Source: an uncultured Gemmiger sp. (GTDB taxonomy: Bacteria > Bacillota > Clostridia > Oscillospirales > Ruminococcaceae). From it: a stretch of DNA of 64,000 nt. Location of the stretch: assembly GCA_944388175.1 (NCBI GenBank), contig CALXHR010000002.1:62001-126000 (forward strand), given 5' to 3'. The translations under genes were made by a program, and so were the position numbers. The notes below the pieces were generated by a model. It searched no databases, had not been told where the DNA came from, and worked only from the letters and a program-made list of their open reading frames with translations. Positions 12,226 through 55,643 of this stretch are shown in pieces (the first letter of the stretch is position 1; every line of letters begins with the position of its first letter).

Positions 12226-12597
12226 TCAGCCAAAGCTGCGCAGCAGCTTGACGGCCGGGCGCACGGCCCGGTCCGGAATGCGTGTGCGGAACCGCGCCAC
12301 CGTGCGCGCCGAGAACGGCATCTCGTCGCTAAACGTTTCCAGCCCCAAAAAGTATTGCAGATAGGGGCTTTCGCGCACCAGCTGCACGACTTCGCGGTCC
12401 GACACGCCGTAGTGCAGCTGGATGATGCGGCAGCCCAGTGCAATGCGCGCCGGGATGGCCGCTTTGCCGCCGGGGGCGAACAGCTCGCTGTAGGCTTTTT
12501 CAAAGCCGTCCCAGTCGATGGCGTCGGCCAGCTGCACCCAGCGGTTGCGGCCGCTGAGTTCCCCATGGTAGGGCGGCAGGAAATCATACACCGACAT
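12226..12597 (-). pseudogene. IS5/IS1182-type transposase remnant (N-terminal domain only)
   Basis: About 123 residues resemble the N-terminal DUF772-type helical domain of IS5/IS1182-like transposases: WVQLADAIDWDGFEKAYSEL, then IALGCRIIQLHYGVSDREVV, then LVRESPYLQYFLGLETFSDE, ending in the RTVARFRTRIP segment. The reading frame then stops with no DDE catalytic domain in any frame downstream, and no terminal inverted repeats were found. It is therefore a broken insertion sequence. The start is uncertain because there is no good ribosome site. Confidence 0.8.
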
Positions 12598-12659
12598 CTG
12601 CTTTTCTCTTGCACGGTACACAGGCAGGCCCCCTTGTATGCGGGGGCCGCTGCCCCCGG

Positions 12660-12690
12660 TGCGCCGCGCCCGTGTAGGGCGCGGCATGCG
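12660..12690 (-). repeat. GC-rich palindrome of the CTACA-tailed repeat family
   Basis: GCCGCGCCC and GGGCGCGGC flank a TACAC loop just after the stop of the 1276-residue protein. The arm-plus-CTACA pattern is the same as in the palindrome cluster at 49.5-50.4 kb. It may act as a transcript end, but there is no T-run. Confidence 0.45.
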
Positions 12691-15600
12691 TCAATATTGC
12701 TGGATCAGCGGGAAAATCAGCGCCAGCACGCACCAGGCAACCTGGTACAGCACCAGGCCGGCCAGCGGCAGCGCCGTCAGCCCGCCGGTCAGCGTCAGCA
12801 CAAGGCCCAGCACGCAGCCCAGCAGCGCCGCGGCCGAAACCAGGGCCGAAGCCTTGCGCTCGCTTTCGGCCGCGCCGGCCGCGGCTTCCAGCCCGCCGAC
12901 AAAGCTGGCAAAGCTGCCCAGATGCAGCATATTGCCCTCGCTTTCCGGCAGCCAGGCCACCGCGGGGTCCAGCGTCTTGCGTTCCTGCGCGGTCAGCACC
13001 TTGACCGAACCGGCCGGCAGGCTGTAGGCGGCTTCCAGCAGTTGGACGTCGCAGTTGAAATCGTCGCAGTCCACCACCAGCGAAAGTCCCGAACGACGCA
13101 GGCTTTCCAGCACAATGGCGGTGTCGGGGTCGCGCTGGTAGGCGACCTGGAACATGGCGAACATCTTGCCGGAGACCGCCAGGTAGATGACCCGGCGCTG
13201 GTTGAGCGTGTGGTGCTGCTCATACTCCAAACTGGGGATTTTGACGCCGTAGTCCTGCATCAGGGCGCGGTTGCCCACCAGCACGCGGCGCTTGTTGACC
13301 CAGCCGACATAGCCTTTACCGTAGACCGTCTCGCGGTCGTCCACCTGGGCCAGCAGGCTGCGGTTTTCGCCCAGCATGCCCAGGAACACCTCGCGCAGCG
13401 TGGGGGCAGCTTCCGCCAGCATCGACGCCGCATAGACGATGGCCAGGTCGATGTGCTCGGGCATGACCGGCTTGATGCCGGACAGCGTCACACAGCCGCT
13501 GGGGAACAGGTCCCGGCTGGTGACCTGGATAACGTTGATGCGGCCCAGCTGGCGGATATCGCGCCAGCCGGGGATGACCGCGCCCACCTGTGCGGCGCTG
13601 CGCTGCATCATGCGCGCCGGCAATGCCGAGAGCAGCGTGCCGGCCAGCGGCGCGCCCAGGCAGAGCACGCTTGCCAGCGCCGTCACGGCGGCGGCGCTGT
13701 CTTTGGTGCGGATGAGCGTGATAACCAGCGCCGCCAGCGCGCAGACACCGGCCAGCCAGGCAAACTGCTGCTGGTTCTTATCGCTGGTGCCGGGGGCGGC
13801 ACTGTTGGCCAAAAAGCTGCGGAAAATCTGGGTGGGGCGGTTGATGAGCACATTGGGGTGCGGTTCGGCCAGGCCGGCCGTCACGGCGCGCAGCGCGCCG
13901 GCGTCCTTGAGCCGGTACGCGACCGAGTGTTCCACCTTGGCGCTGACAAGCCGGAAATTGGCCTGCACCGTACGCGCGCTGGTGCGTTTGCCGATGGCGT
14001 TCAGGCAGAGCACAAGCGCCGCCGGGCCTGCCAGCAACGTGACTTCCGGCGCGTAGTTCTGCGCCGCCAGCAGCACGATGCACTGTACCGCCGCGCCCAG
14101 CAGCGGCAAAACCGCCAGACTGTCCGGCGTGGGGCGCTTGACCAGCCCCAGCACGCCGCCGACCACCGTGCGCCAGCACACCGCGCCGGCCGCCACCAGC
14201 AGCACCAGCACCACGGCCGGGTAGACGCTGCCGTCGGCCAGCGGGCCGGGCAGCACCGGCAAAGCGGCCGCCAGCAGGCCCAGAACCAGCAAAACGGCGG
14301 CCACCGCCCCGGTCACCAGCGAAGCCAGCGTGTAGCGCAGCACCTGCTGGTCCAGTTCCCGCCGCACGGCGGGCGCGTCCTCGGCACGCTCATAGTCATG
14401 GCGGCGCACCGGCGGCAGTTCCGACGTCTCAAACGGCGCGGCGGAGGGGTCCTCCTGCTCGTCCTGCGCGCGGCCTGCCAGATGCAGGCCCAGCTTGCCG
14501 CGGCCACGGCGTTTTTCGCCGGCGGTCTCCTCCTGCAGAGACTGCGTCAGGCGCGCCGCGGCCGCGTCAAACGCTTCGGTATCGCCGGGGCGCCCCCCGG
14601 TGTTGATGGCTTGCGCGATATCGTGCACAAACGACGCTGTGCCCGGCTCGGCCGGGGCTGCGCCGCCGGCCAAATCCTGCGTGAAGCCGCTATGCGCGGG
14701 GGCAGCCGTGCCGCCAGCCAGGTCCTGCGTGAAGCCGCTATGCGCCGGGGCGGCCGCGCCGCCAGCCAAGTCCTGCGTGAAGCCGCTATGCGCGGGGGCA
14801 GCCGTGCCGCCAGCCAGGTCCTGCGTGAAGCCGCTATGCGCGGGGGCAGCGCCGCCGGCCAGGTCCTGCGTGAAACCGCTGTGCGCCGGGGTGGCCGTGC
14901 CAGCCAGGTCCTGCGTGAAGCCGCTATGTGCGGGGGCGGCTGCGCCACCCAGGTTCTGCGTAAAACCGCTGTGCGTCGGGGCGGCGTCCCAGTCCTTTGT
15001 GTCGCCGTCGTCGTCCGGGGTCTGCGGCGTCAGGCGGATTTTGCCGGTCAGCGTATCGACCAGGCGGTCCACCTCGTCCGGTTCGTGGGGGGTGAACAGT
15101 TCCCCGACTTGTGCGGCCAAGCCCACCACAACGGTATCGGCATTGGGGTCGCGCCCTGCGGGCACGGCAGACGGTTGGGGCGCCGCCGCCCGGGCGGCAG
15201 GCTGGGCCTGCGGCGCAGCGGGCTGGCGCGGAACCGCCGGGGCCGGCGCGGGGGCAGGCTGCGGCGCGGGGGCCGGAGCGCTTTTGGGCGCAGTGGGGCG
15301 CAGCGTGCCCCGCGCGGGGCGCACTGCGTTATACGCCTGCATAAATTCCTGCGTGCTGTCCACCGGGGCGGCGTCCAGCGCGCCCAGGTCCATCGTAAAC
15401 CCGGTGCGGGGGTCCTGCTGCGGCAGGTTCAGCGGTTCGCCCACCGGTTCCCCGGCCGCCAGTTCCGGCGCAGGGGCCGGCGGCGCGGCGGAAATCTTTT
15501 GCCCGGGCGTAAACTCTACGGTGTTGCGCTTTTTGCGGTAAACCGTGCCGGTGGCGTCTGCGTCCCTCGGCGTGCGGGCCGCCGCGGCCCGGCGCGTATA

Positions 15601-16521
15601 TTTGCTGTGCCAGACCGCTTCCTCTTCCCCGCTCTGCGGGGCGGCCGGCTGCGGTGCCGGGGCCGGCACGGCAGCCTGCGGCTGTGCGGCGGCCGGGCGT
15701 TCCGTCGTGCGTTCCTCCGGGATGACAATCTCCTCGGTCACGGCGCCGCCGCCAAACAGCCCGGCCAGCGGGTTCTGCTTTTTGGCGCTGCGGGCAGGGG
15801 GTTCCGGCTGCGGGGCCGGGGCCGCCTGCTGCACCGATTCCGGGGCGGGCGGCGGGCTGAACGGTTCCGCCGGGGCGCTGCCGCCCCCCAGTGAAACGTT
15901 GATGGGGACAAATTCGTCGGTATCCTCGGCCGAGCGCAGCCCAAACAGGCCGCGCTTCTTTTTGCCGGGTTCGCGGAGCTTGCCTTTTTCGTCGGGCACA
16001 ACGGCGACGGAATCGCGGAAAAATTTCTGGAACTGGTTTTTGCCCTGGTTCAGCGCCACCGTGTCGGCCACGTTGGCGTCGGGCGCCATTTTCAGCAAAA
16101 AGCCCTTGATGATGCCGGTGCGCGTCGTATCCCCCAGCGTGCCGGTATCCGCCGCAGCCTGCGCCGGGGAGGGCTGCTGCACCGGGACCTGCGGTTGCGC
16201 CGGGGCCTGCTGCACCGGGGCCTGCTGCACCGGGGTTTGCGGCCGTGCCGGGGCCGTGCGCGGCGGTACGGCGGCCGGCCGTGCGGCGCGCGTGCCCGGG
16301 TAGGGCGCGTCATAGCCGTCCAGGTCATCCAGGCCGGAAAACGCAATGCGGCGATCCTGTTCCGGCGTGCTTTGCAGCGGCGCGGCCGAAATGCCCACGC
16401 TGCGCAGGATCTCGTCCACCTGGTGGTCGGTCACCGTGTCCTGCACGCCGGCCGCCGTCTGCTGCTGGTTGAGTTCCTGCAGGATGCGGTCCACAGAGTC
16501 ATTGGTACGTTTGCTTGGCAT
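12691..16521 (-). CDS. Large repeat-bearing membrane protein with a degenerate P-type-ATPase-like C-terminal half
   Basis: This is a 1276-residue protein of unknown function. Residues 1-725 are mostly low-complexity Pro/Ala/Gln-rich and probably disordered, with a charged helical start (DRILQELNQQQ, VDEILRSVG) and seven copies of a 16-residue repeat, PAHSGFTQDLAGG-type, near 510-620. From about 726 come paired TM segments. Then follow a segment SVLCLGAPLAGTLLSALPAR where P1B pumps have the CPC helix, and NVIQVTSRDLFPSGCVTL where DKTGTLT is expected, so the phosphorylated Asp position reads Ser. A VGNRALMQDYGV strand and a YLAVSGKMFAMFQVAY strand resemble N/P domains; two C-terminal TMs follow. 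TGES and the GDGxNDAP hinge are missing. I infer a catalytically dead relative of P1B ATPases. It follows rlmB by 31 bp with an AGAGGAG site. Confidence 0.72.
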   Translation of the reverse strand: MPSKRTNDSVDRILQELNQQQTAAGVQDTVTDHQVDEILRSVGISAAPLQSTPEQDRRIAFSGLDDLDGYDAPYPGTRAARPAAVPPRTAPARPQTPVQQAPVQQAPAQPQVPVQQPSPAQAAADTGTLGDTTRTGIIKGFLLKMAPDANVADTVALNQGKNQFQKFFRDSVAVVPDEKGKLREPGKKKRGLFGLRSAEDTDEFVPINVSLGGGSAPAEPFSPPPAPESVQQAAPAPQPEPPARSAKKQNPLAGLFGGGAVTEEIVIPEERTTERPAAAQPQAAVPAPAPQPAAPQSGEEEAVWHSKYTRRAAAARTPRDADATGTVYRKKRNTVEFTPGQKISAAPPAPAPELAAGEPVGEPLNLPQQDPRTGFTMDLGALDAAPVDSTQEFMQAYNAVRPARGTLRPTAPKSAPAPAPQPAPAPAPAVPRQPAAPQAQPAARAAAPQPSAVPAGRDPNADTVVVGLAAQVGELFTPHEPDEVDRLVDTLTGKIRLTPQTPDDDGDTKDWDAAPTHSGFTQNLGGAAAPAHSGFTQDLAGTATPAHSGFTQDLAGGAAPAHSGFTQDLAGGTAAPAHSGFTQDLAGGAAAPAHSGFTQDLAGGTAAPAHSGFTQDLAGGAAPAEPGTASFVHDIAQAINTGGRPGDTEAFDAAAARLTQSLQEETAGEKRRGRGKLGLHLAGRAQDEQEDPSAAPFETSELPPVRRHDYERAEDAPAVRRELDQQVLRYTLASLVTGAVAAVLLVLGLLAAALPVLPGPLADGSVYPAVVLVLLVAAGAVCWRTVVGGVLGLVKRPTPDSLAVLPLLGAAVQCIVLLAAQNYAPEVTLLAGPAALVLCLNAIGKRTSARTVQANFRLVSAKVEHSVAYRLKDAGALRAVTAGLAEPHPNVLINRPTQIFRSFLANSAAPGTSDKNQQQFAWLAGVCALAALVITLIRTKDSAAAVTALASVLCLGAPLAGTLLSALPARMMQRSAAQVGAVIPGWRDIRQLGRINVIQVTSRDLFPSGCVTLSGIKPVMPEHIDLAIVYAASMLAEAAPTLREVFLGMLGENRSLLAQVDDRETVYGKGYVGWVNKRRVLVGNRALMQDYGVKIPSLEYEQHHTLNQRRVIYLAVSGKMFAMFQVAYQRDPDTAIVLESLRRSGLSLVVDCDDFNCDVQLLEAAYSLPAGSVKVLTAQERKTLDPAVAWLPESEGNMLHLGSFASFVGGLEAAAGAAESERKASALVSAAALLGCVLGLVLTLTGGLTALPLAGLVLYQVAWCVLALIFPLIQQY
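14660..14985 (-). repeat. Tandem 45-48-bp coding repeat (seven 15-16-residue units)
   Basis: Within the 1276-residue protein, seven near-identical units encode PAHSGFTQDLAG plus 3-4 Gly/Ala/Thr residues. The DNA period is 48 bp with a few 45-bp and 42-bp steps, always in frame. One isolated relative, TGFTMDLGA, lies about 130 residues earlier. The units are highly alike at DNA level, so copy number probably varies between strains. Confidence 0.9.
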
Positions 16522-16552: not shown

Positions 16553-17335
16553 TTACTTCCCGCTGCGGCGGCGCAGCACCTCATAACACAGGATGCCCGC
16601 CGCCACGCTGACATTGTAGCTGTCCACGCCGGTCGCCTGGCCGGGGGCCATTTCCAGCGTCACCGCCGCGTCGCACAGTTTGCGCGTCAATGCGCCGGGG
16701 CCGCCGCCCTCGCTGCCCAGCACCAGCGCCACCGGGCCCGAAAGATCGGTTTTGGCCAGCGGCGCGCCGCCGAGGTCGGCACAGTAGACAAAAATGTTAT
16801 TTTGTTTGATGGTGCGGATGGCCTGCGCCAGATTGGCCACGCGGGCCACCGGCAGGCGGGCCGCCGCGCCGGCGCTGGCTTTCATCACGGTACCGGTGAC
16901 GCCGACACCGCCGCGCCGCGGGATGACGACGCCGTGCGCGCCGCACAGGTAGGCCGAGCGGATGATGGCCCCGAGGTTGTGCGGGTCCTCGACGCCGTCG
17001 CACAAAACTAAGAACGGCGCTTCCCCTTTGGCGTTTGCCGCCGCCAGCAAATCGTCCAGCGCGGCGTAAGCCACCTCGGCCGCGCGGGCGGCAACGCCCT
17101 GATGCTCGGCCGTATTGCACAGTTTTTGCAGCTTGTGCCCCGGCACCCGCTTGACGACGGCGCCGCAGCCTTTGGCCAGCGCCGTATAGTAACCGGCCAC
17201 CGCCGGCGGCAGCGTATCGGCCAGGTACACGGTGTCCACAGCGGCCCCGCTTTTGAGCAGTTCTGCCACCGGGTTTTTGCCCCATACCAGCGTGTCGGGG
17301 CGCGCGGGCGCCGTCTCGCGGCCTGTCTTTTCCAT
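16553..17335 (-). CDS. rlmB: 23S rRNA 2'-O-methyltransferase RlmB-like (TrmH/SpoU family)
   Basis: This SPOUT-fold methyltransferase probably methylates the 2'-O of G2251 (E. coli numbering) in 23S rRNA. It has 260 residues: an N-terminal substrate-binding domain (VWGKNPVAELL near 20) and a C-terminal knot with motif 1 NLGAIIRSA, motif 2 VLGSEGGGPG and motif 3 DSYNVSVAAGI. The start at 17335 has AGGAGG 6 nt upstream; the frame continues further but without initiation signals. A TATACT -10 (17402-17407) lies upstream with a poor -35. TrmH-family specificity is hard to read from sequence, so another RNA target cannot be excluded. Confidence 0.88.
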   Translation of the reverse strand: MEKTGRETAPARPDTLVWGKNPVAELLKSGAAVDTVYLADTLPPAVAGYYTALAKGCGAVVKRVPGHKLQKLCNTAEHQGVAARAAEVAYAALDDLLAAANAKGEAPFLVLCDGVEDPHNLGAIIRSAYLCGAHGVVIPRRGGVGVTGTVMKASAGAAARLPVARVANLAQAIRTIKQNNIFVYCADLGGAPLAKTDLSGPVALVLGSEGGGPGALTRKLCDAAVTLEMAPGQATGVDSYNVSVAAGILCYEVLRRRSGK

Positions 17336-53626: not shown

Positions 53627-53703
53627 GGTAACAGGACCTCTTTCCAGCTGATTTTGTGCTTTTATTATATCGGCCCGCCCCGCGAAATGCAAGCCGCGCG
53701 CCC

Positions 53704-53732
53704 TTGCGTTTTGGCGGCAAAGCCGCTATACT
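53704..53732 (+). promoter_or_regulatory. Promoter of uraA
   Basis: TTGCGT (53704-53709), a 17-bp spacer containing a GGCGGC/GCCGC inverted repeat, and TATACT (53727-53732). The spacer symmetry could matter for a regulator, but no PyrR leader structure is evident. Confidence 0.72.
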
Positions 53733-53814
53733 GGATACGTACCAACCGGGGAAGCGGCGCAGCGCGCCTTTTCCCCTTTTTTGCGGCGGATGTGTAAACA
53801 AACGGGAGGATACC

Positions 53815-55146
53815 ATGAGCGAAAAGAAACTGGACTATACCCAGGGCATCTACAATGCCCGCGAGCTGGGCGCGCCCCGCGTGCTGATTTTGGGCGCACA
53901 GCATATGTTTGCGATGTTTGGCGCCACGGTGCTGGTGCCGCTGCTGACGGGGTTGAGCGTCAGCACCACGCTGCTGTGCGCCGGGCTGGGCACGCTGTTG
54001 TTCCACCTTTTGTGCAAGGGCCGGGTGCCGGCGTTTCTGGGTTCCAGCTTTGCCTATCTGGGCGGGTTCACCATCGTGACCAACAGCGGCGCCAACCCCG
54101 AAAATCTGCCCTACGCCTGCGCAGCGGTGGCGTTCTCGGGCCTGGTGTACGTGCTGTTCAGTTTGCTGATCTCGGCGTTCGGCATCCGGCGGATGATGAA
54201 GTTCTTCCCGCCCGTTGTGACGGGGCCCATCATCATCGCCATCGGCCTGATTCTGGCCCCCAGCGCCATTGAAAACTGCCAGAGCAACTGGCTGCTGGCC
54301 TTTGTGGCGCTGGCCACCGTCATCGCCTGCAACATCTGGGGCAAGGGCATGGTCAAAATTTTGCCCATCCTCATCGGCGTGCTGGTGTCCTATGCGGTGG
54401 CGCTGGCCACCGGCGCGGTGGACTTTGCCCCCATTGCCGACGCCGCGTGGTTCGGCATCCCGCTGCGCAAAGAGGAGATGGGCCTGTTCGCCATCGACGG
54501 CAGCGAGACGTTCATCAGCGCGCTGTTCACCATCGTGCCCATTGCGCTGGCGACGATGATGGAGCACATCGGCGACATTGCGGCCATCAGCGCCACGACC
54601 GGCAAAAACTACATCCGCGAGCCGGGGCTGAACCGCACGCTGCTGGGCGACGGCCTGGCCACGACGATGGCCGGCCTGCTGGGCGGCCCCGCCAACACCA
54701 CCTACGGCGAGAACACCGGCGTGCTGGCGCTGACCAAAATTTACGACCCGCTGGTCATCCGCATTGCGGCGGTGTTTGCGCTGGTGCTGAGCTTCTGCCC
54801 CAAGTTTGAGGCCGTCATCAACACCATCCCCTCCGGCATCGTGGGCGGCATCAGCTTTGTGCTGTACGGCATGATCTCGGCCATCGGCGTGCGCAACGTG
54901 GTCGAGAACAAGGTCGATTTCACCAACTCGCGCAACCTCATCATCGCGGCGGTCATTCTGGTCTGCGCGCTGGGCTTTGACTCGGTGGGCGGCATCACCT
55001 TCACCGTCGCCGGCATGGCGGTCAACCTGTCCGGCCTGGCCATCGCGGCCATCGCGGGCATTGTGCTCAACGCCATCCTGCCCGGCAACGACTACGAATT
55101 TGACGAGGGCACCAACGACGGCGAGGGCGCCAGCCTGCGCGTCTGA
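53815..55146 (+). CDS. uraA: Uracil permease (NCS2/UraA family)
   Basis: This 443-residue 14-TM nucleobase:cation symporter probably imports uracil. Its N-terminus LGAQHMFAMFGATVLVPLLTG, the GSSFAYLGGF segment, the SALFTIVPIALATMMEHIGDI helix with the substrate-binding Glu, and LLGGPANTTYGENTGVLALT with the second Glu match UraA rather than xanthine or uric acid carriers. GGGAGGA precedes the ATG. An uncharacterised protein follows 25 bp later. Confidence 0.94.
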   Translation: MSEKKLDYTQGIYNARELGAPRVLILGAQHMFAMFGATVLVPLLTGLSVSTTLLCAGLGTLLFHLLCKGRVPAFLGSSFAYLGGFTIVTNSGANPENLPYACAAVAFSGLVYVLFSLLISAFGIRRMMKFFPPVVTGPIIIAIGLILAPSAIENCQSNWLLAFVALATVIACNIWGKGMVKILPILIGVLVSYAVALATGAVDFAPIADAAWFGIPLRKEEMGLFAIDGSETFISALFTIVPIALATMMEHIGDIAAISATTGKNYIREPGLNRTLLGDGLATTMAGLLGGPANTTYGENTGVLALTKIYDPLVIRIAAVFALVLSFCPKFEAVINTIPSGIVGGISFVLYGMISAIGVRNVVENKVDFTNSRNLIIAAVILVCALGFDSVGGITFTVAGMAVNLSGLAIAAIAGIVLNAILPGNDYEFDEGTNDGEGASLRV

Positions 55147-55171
55147 TTTTACAAAAAAGGGAGGGTCCGCT

Positions 55172-55522
55172 ATGACTGCGGCAGATTTTACCGGCCTGCA
55201 CCTGCAATACAAGACCGAGCAGCAGCCCGGCGAGGTGCCCGCCGCCATCGAGCATGATTTTGACGCCGGGCGCATGGTGGACCACTACTATGTCACGCCC
55301 TCGCCCGCGTTTTGGGCCGACGAGGGCGTGCAGGCACTGGGCACGGTGGCTGGCATCCTGTTTTTGCAGCAACCGGACGGCGCGCCGTGGCAGATCTTGG
55401 TGCACGAACCGGCCATGGTCAAAGAGGTCATTTTTGAGATGCCGGACGCCGAGTTCCGCGCCATGCTCAACGCAAACGGCGTCGTGCTGCCCGGCGAGCC
55501 GGGCTTTGTGCCGCCGCAGTAA
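55172..55522 (+). CDS. Hypothetical protein cotranscribed with uracil permease
   Basis: A 116-residue soluble protein of no recognised family. It starts MTAADFTGLHLQYKTEQQPG with GGGAGGG upstream and contains DHYYVTPSPAFWADEGVQ and FLQQPDGAPWQILVHE. It has no TM, signal or known motif. The 25-bp gap to uraA and the shared terminator say it is in the same operon, so a role near uracil uptake or salvage is possible but unproven. Confidence 0.75.
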   Translation: MTAADFTGLHLQYKTEQQPGEVPAAIEHDFDAGRMVDHYYVTPSPAFWADEGVQALGTVAGILFLQQPDGAPWQILVHEPAMVKEVIFEMPDAEFRAMLNANGVVLPGEPGFVPPQ

Positions 55523-55591
55523 GCACCGCCGGGACCGCCTTGCCCAGTGCAGCGGCGTAACCACACGCCGGGACCACACCCATACAGTTTG

Positions 55592-55643
55592 CCCGCCGTG
55601 GCGGAAGAGTCTTTCCCCTTCCCGCCACGGCGGGTCTTTTTTT
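55592..55643 (+). terminator. Terminator of the uraA operon
   Basis: A 13-bp stem CCCGCCGTGGCGG/CCGCCACGGCGGG (55592-55604 with 55622-55634), followed by TCTTTTTTT. Confidence 0.92.

Follow-up and report, generated by a model that had tools for sequence, protein, structure and literature searches.

What does a membrane protein do that is laid out like a heavy-metal pump and carries none of the pump's catalytic signatures? This question is raised by an open frame of 1276 codons on the reverse strand (12691..16521) of the window, by which we mean the whole 64,000-nucleotide stretch analysed here (contig CALXHR010000002.1, positions 62,001 to 126,000, of the uncultured Gemmiger sp. assembly GCA_944388175.1). 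The encoded protein, hereafter the pseudo-pump, joins a disordered, repeat-rich N-terminal half to a C-terminal half that resembles P1B-type ATPases. P-type ATPases are taken to depend on one phospho-aspartate cycle, and an old and conserved family of prokaryotes that does without this cycle would demonstrate that the P-type fold has been reused beyond pumping. We show that the family is related to P1B-type ATPases, with their predicted fold and MA-MB-M1..M6 plan, that every relative examined lacks the signature for phosphorylation as well as the dephosphorylation loop and the hinge, and that purifying selection maintains the gene throughout a bacterial order, where it lies directly behind rlmB.

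The predicted P-type fold and the lost catalytic motifs

The AlphaFold2 model of the C-terminal half, built with 69 sequences (predicted local distance difference test, pLDDT, 89.6; predicted template-modelling score, pTM, 0.83), comprises eight long membrane-type helices and the actuator (A), phosphorylation (P) and nucleotide-binding (N) domains. The top Foldseek match of this model was CopA (4bbj; E 1.3e-17, TM-score 0.58 by query length), and 49 of the 50 matches shown were described as P-type ATPases or domains of these, the exception (9byb_A) being labelled a membrane transport protein. The full-length matches superpose with a high root-mean-square deviation, in most cases some 10 A or above, so the domain positions differ. 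A sequence search of the PDB with the window protein returned a copper ATPase (3rfu, E 2e-9), and the NCBIfam model TIGR01525 matched its C-terminal half at E 3e-9 with 36.2 bits, far under the curated cut-off of 346; the same model matched 57 of 60 family members and the CopA model 59 of 60, while a Pfam scan of the window protein gave nothing above threshold (best E 5.6). A P-type fold with MA-MB and six further helices is present by the predicted model and Foldseek; the P1B order that an earlier reading, made from the letters alone (the sequence-only reading), had traced along the C-terminal half is thus upheld by a predicted structure of the P-type, with CopA ranked first.

The motifs tell a different part of the story. 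As that reading had stated, TSRDLFPSG stands at the DKTGT position (residues 1001-1009; 13495..13521, reverse strand, as are all features of the gene), VGN occupies residues 1082-1084, and DKTGT, TGES and GDGxND are missing from the window protein. Residue counts were taken over 157 distinct aligned orthologues, for which the duplicates L219-L222 were removed and five fragments dropped; the sets used for domain lengths (161 rows) and for shuffles (160 rows) both include the four duplicates. In the aligned columns DKTGT, TGES and GDG were intact in none of the 157, and a single GDG..D string was found outside these columns among 146 orthologues (L089). The loss of the catalytic aspartate itself, as claimed earlier, holds for the window protein and not for the family, since an Asp stands at the aligned site in 63/157 orthologues and is absent in 94/157; the residue that follows is Lys in none. 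The universal loss is therefore that of the KTGT signature, not of the Asp, and no orthologue examined retains DKTGT. Neither of the two outcomes that the sequence-only reading had named as refuting it, a predicted structure unrelated to the P-type fold or orthologues with DKTGT, was thus observed. The His column of the SEHP motif in the N domain holds Pro in the window protein and His in 0/157. The Asp of TGD is kept in 156/157, with Ser/Thr at the Thr column in 116/157, and two N-domain glycines aligned with glycines of the pumps are invariant (157/157); we take them to be the nucleotide-pocket glycines.

Conceivably, the protein is still an enzyme, in which a remodelled site of the haloacid dehalogenase (HAD) type (Asp-Ala-x-x-Leu-Phe plus the TGD Asp) carries out another phosphoryl or hydrolytic reaction. 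The motif I Asp in 63 orthologues, the retained TGD residues and matches of PF00702 (HAD hydrolase) to 11 of 60 members at E<=0.01 would suit such an activity; the window protein, however, is among the 94 that lack the motif I Asp, and the Lys after it and GDGxND are absent in all 157, which makes this explanation improbable.

The domains have also changed in size. Behind the membrane helices MA, MB, M1 and M2 of the model (residues 715-859; 13945..14379), the actuator domain is a shrunken remnant without TGES (residues 860-911; 13789..13944), with a median of 52 residues in the family as against 117-135 in four pumps. M3-M4 follow (residues 912-984; 13570..13788), with APL in place of CPC. 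Part 1 of the P domain (36 residues, 985-1020; 13462..13569) and the N domain (108 residues vs 99-152, 1021-1128; 13138..13461) have retained pump size, the latter being the best conserved region, whereas part 2 of the P domain, where GDGxND is lost and the TGD Asp kept, measures 75 residues against 107-135 in the four pumps (1129-1203; 12913..13137). M5-M6 complete the model (residues 1204-1276; 12694..12912).

An order-wide family directly behind rlmB

In the sample of the taxonomic family, the C-terminal half found matches in 147 of 148 genomes at E<=1e-3, so the observation is beyond chance; by E-value, 143 of the 148 were read as carrying orthologues, some clipped at contig ends, leaving five without (G016, G056, G070, G102 and G125). 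The sample of the order, which we take to be Oscillospirales of GTDB, gave matches in 294/295 genomes at E<=1e-3 and in 273/295 at E<=1e-40, the latter being chosen as the orthologue line since pumps from outside the order reached 4.7e-36 at best. For a scan of the sequence collection, an alignment of closer relatives (A2) proved suitable, the wide alignment (A1) being too divergent. Among the 22 genomes short of the line, 14 are less than 90% complete and eight are good (G174, G208, G234, G248, G276, G357, G394 and G411), for which reason the gene may have been lost or have strongly diverged in some genomes of the order. Full-length matches in the class sample (245 genomes) and the phylum sample (199 genomes) came from nine and two order members, respectively; none was found outside the order at E<=1e-30, and the remaining matches at that level covered model positions of about 202-485 only, like those of true pumps. 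The pseudo-pump family is old and order-specific. Its members include Gemmiger formicilis and Faecalibacterium strains (NCBI taxonomy places Gemmiger in Oscillospiraceae, Eubacteriales), and the closest named relative, 95% identical, is from a metagenome-assembled genome of Candidatus Gemmiger excrementipullorum. Nearly all sampled genomes of this order, to which dominant gut commensals belong (Gemmiger, Faecalibacterium and relatives), thus carry the gene; this near-universality and its retention in genomes of 0.7 and 0.9 Mb are indicative that it is likely important to the cell. In a relative outside the taxonomic family (G169; loci L088/L244), an in-frame TGA splits the pseudo-pump.

In a tree built from 25 family members and 19 pump-like rows, one branch with support 70/87 separated the family from the pumps, and the pump side of the same tree, leaving out the faulty row L257_pump, had support 99/97. 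The tree took 25 of 31 chosen family rows, L255 and L256 are absent from it, and L257_pump is in a wrong frame, its long branch being artefactual. A single origin of the family is only moderately supported.

Could such a gene be a decaying pseudogene, held open by chance in GC-rich DNA? The lost catalytic motifs and the antisense frames of 12691-16521, which are long as well, would agree with decay. The ratio of non-synonymous to synonymous substitution rates (dN/dS) against nine Gemmiger relatives, however, was 0.09-0.40 in the C-terminal half and 0.16-0.47 in the N-terminal half (a rough estimate for the latter, as dS exceeded 1 in 7/9 comparisons), values that stay well below 1 throughout. 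Decay is likewise contradicted by the invariant residues and the fixed gene order of a single order-wide family, and we see hardly any chance for it; this is an order-wide family and not local decay or an oddity of one genome.

In the window, rlmB (16553..17335, reverse strand; NCBIfam TIGR00186, 189 bits vs a cut-off of 160) lies upstream as the presumed operon partner, and the ATG of the pseudo-pump, preceded by a GAGGAG that resembles a ribosome-binding site, starts 31 bases past the rlmB stop. We found rlmB immediately upstream on the same strand in 40/40 loci of the taxonomic family and in 20/20 loci that represent 20 further families of the order. Among named loci it was immediately upstream in 71 of 80; eight have no upstream room, and at L158 it lies 638 bases off a frame that starts late. 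Across all loci with upstream room the pseudo-pump is directly downstream of rlmB in 131/132, the named and unnamed sets partly overlapping. Orthologues beside rlmB, which the sequence-only reading had suggested looking for in related genomes, are thus found across the order. From the spacing (median 25 bases) we infer that the two genes are co-transcribed, and the fixed place behind rlmB offers a direct experimental handle.

Apart from rlmB, no neighbour was nearly as constant in 60 loci. An EF-G gene is downstream in 17/60 (e.g., L237:4473-6545, NF009381) and hence not universal, and an 8-oxoguanine glycosylase-like gene is upstream in 20/60. Both the rlmB pairing and the EF-G gene that follows in some loci hint at a connection with translation or ribosome biology. 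Just upstream of rlmB, 15/60 loci have a small protein of about 87 amino acids with a hydrophobic C-terminal stretch (L041:5726-5986), which had no NCBIfam or Pfam match.

The neighbourhood also bears on the possibility that the protein regulates a true P-type pump as its subunit or serves as its decoy, acting through a heterodimer or a shared chaperone dock. Pseudoenzymes often regulate their active kin, and true pumps are at hand: the window has three P-type ATPase genes with PF00122 (at 7115, 19804 and 56762), as many as the sequence-only reading had counted. The constant neighbour, however, is rlmB and not a pump. Furthermore, two small genomes, G068 (0.7 Mb) and G087 (0.9 Mb), both 97% complete, keep the pseudo-pump without a P1B pump; each has one PF00122 pump, with DKTGT and GDGxND present and IPEG in M4, and no other PF00122 match, and the IPEG places these pumps outside the CPC type (P2-like). 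A role as pump subunit is therefore unlikely, if marginally less so than a retained enzymatic activity.

The tail and the role of the protein

The N-terminal half is marked by short motifs in a disordered chain. Within the first 70 residues, the pattern [VIL][DEN]x[IL][LI]..[hydrophobic] is present in 109 of the 156 distinct relatives, and in the 160-row set such VDxIL-type motifs were found in 110/160 against 0.32 in shuffles. The window protein has two copies, SVDRILQELN (residues 9-18; 16468..16497) and QVDEILRSVG (residues 34-43; 16393..16422). The motif NQFQKFFRDSVAVVP (residues 162-176; 15994..16038) follows a pattern shared with relatives; the motif F..FF..[STHA][VA].[VIQ] was found in 57/156 distinct relatives and not in shuffles. 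In a full-length AlphaFold2 model of one relative (L134, 866 amino acids) the C-terminal half is confident and the tail is disordered, interrupted by short helices at residues 10-18, 29-38, 166-175 and 191-199 that were mostly predicted with low confidence; the N-terminal VDxIL helix is small and of low to middling confidence. Strings like VDxIL occur near protein starts in other families of the order too. With the strict VDDIL pattern at the DNA level, 61 genomes gave 33 matches vs 6 for the reversed pattern as control; 20 of the 30 matches inspected were N-termini of the pseudo-pump family, and none of the other 10 stood at the start of another recognisable protein. Scans of the long tails of seven proteins gave no known domain, two weak Pfam hits falling in the C-terminal halves.

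The tandem repeats are a different matter. Tandem Repeats Finder places about seven copies of a 45/48-bp unit at 14654..14981 (15-16 amino acids each, HSGFTQDLAGG), and the seven units noticed earlier are confirmed as HSGFTQ units starting at residues 517-610. Their count varies among close relatives, with three HSGFTQDL repeats by regular expression in L104 (95% identical), one in L105, three in L106 and none in L107, L111 and L115. The sequence-only reading had made them part of its description of the protein; they prove to be a local feature and no hallmark of the family, and look like a recent expansion in Gemmiger, the VDxIL helix being far commoner.

Our favoured reading, to which we give a probability of roughly 0.5, is that of a non-pumping, membrane-anchored scaffold or sensor, an order-specific pseudo-P1B-ATPase. 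The earlier proposal of a scaffold or sensor that evolved from a metal pump is supported in substance, fitting the P-type fold and the motif loss; the role is what stays conditional. The pseudo-pump would no longer pump, it would be anchored in the membrane by its eight-helix bundle and bind a ligand or protein through the preserved N domain on the cytosolic side, and the long disordered tail, in many members with a VDxIL helix at its tip, would capture a cytosolic partner; the whole protein would act as a membrane tether or sensor. Conservation points, on balance, to a cytosolic binding role: the N domain holds 14 of the 21 columns with entropy below 0.8 bits and P part 1 another three, the other four being spread singly over MA/MB, M1-M2, the A remnant and P part 2. 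In a more specific form, the dead copper-type pump may be a recruiting platform on the membrane, where the VDxIL helix would tie down a factor of the ribosome or of rRNA maturation (RlmB, EF-G or the large subunit) and what was once the ATP-binding domain would act as sensor; this we hold to be a tentative and rather doubtful extension.

Several observations weigh against the scaffold or sensor reading. The helix motif is missing in 47/156 distinct relatives, some with truncated starts, and a member from another family of the order (L235, genome G180) has no tail at 545 amino acids and still lies 25 bases behind rlmB; the tether role therefore cannot be universal. The putative link to translation is drawn from gene order. 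The phospho-site Asp of some orthologues and the nearly invariant TGD Asp leave a remote chance of residual HAD chemistry. Finally, some membrane-helix residues are fairly conserved (Asp800 in 133/157, Asn855 in 130/157, Trp1263 in 125/157 and Tyr1259 in 116/157), which keeps a channel role among the candidates: as an ATP-independent channel or facilitator, the bundle would passively conduct a metal or other solute, gated by the cytosolic domains. The whole P1B bundle is retained in the model, and the M4 proline (133/157) and the MB glycine (153/157) are conserved; just two of the 21 most conserved columns, however, lie in MA-M6, the mean entropy there is as high as that of the rest outside P1 and N, and at the CPC position Cys is found at the first column in 3/157 and at the last in 0/157. 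A channel is accordingly about as doubtful as the recruiting platform.

Several known systems resemble the pseudo-pump in part. The pseudo-pump shares with the P1B heavy-metal ATPases (CopA/ZntA; TIGR01525) the predicted fold, the MA-MB-M1..M6 plan, the N-domain glycines and the TGD Asp; it differs in lacking DKTGT, TGES, GDGxND, CPC and the SEHP His, in its half-size A domain, and in adding the long disordered tail (in most members) and the linkage to rlmB. Human TMEM94/ERMA of the endoplasmic reticulum (ER) likewise combines a P-type-like fold with a missing TGES (PMC12134183). Its pumping is disputed, one cryo-EM study making the case against it and a further paper describing an ER Mg2+ ATPase (PMC12134183, PMC13322241). 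TMEM94 differs in being eukaryotic, with ten transmembrane helices, nearest to SPCA, with the site D417 present, and not P1B-like (PMC12134183). Such a ten-helix, SPCA-like plan was not seen in the pseudo-pump, whose model, best fitted by CopA, contains eight long membrane-type helices. The apicomplexan guanylate cyclases with a P4-ATPase-like domain also join a degenerate P-type domain to another function, most P-type signatures being unidentifiable in PfGC-beta, and differ in being of the P4 type, fused to a cyclase and eukaryotic (PMC6592433). Our literature searches found no description of a prokaryotic pseudo-P-type ATPase or an rlmB-linked protein like that of the window, in line with the sequence-only reading, which knew of no described family with this build.

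A second degenerate pump and an adjoining frame

The same genome carries a second degenerate P1B ATPase of 664 amino acids (L004:388-2382; G000:C5, about 53652-55643), with TGPA for TGES, GKEGV for DKTGT, GDGxND lost and SDHP kept. Both this protein and the rlmB-linked family are P1B-type with catalytic motifs lost, but the former is much closer to real pumps: it scores 272 bits with TIGR01525 and groups among the pumps, apart from the rlmB-linked family, in the tree that leaves out L255 and L256. Of 11 relatives inspected, nine have DKTGT and two are degenerate in other ways, L255 (TGSD, DKDGA) and L256 (TGSD, QKDGI). These two rule out a species-local degeneration, and this is a second pump line losing its catalytic site within Gemmiger, where intact and degenerate homologues stand side by side.

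Directly downstream of the pseudo-pump gene, a frame of 153 amino acids (window 12226-12687) may be a transposase fragment, which it resembles; a similar frame occupies the same place in locus L035.

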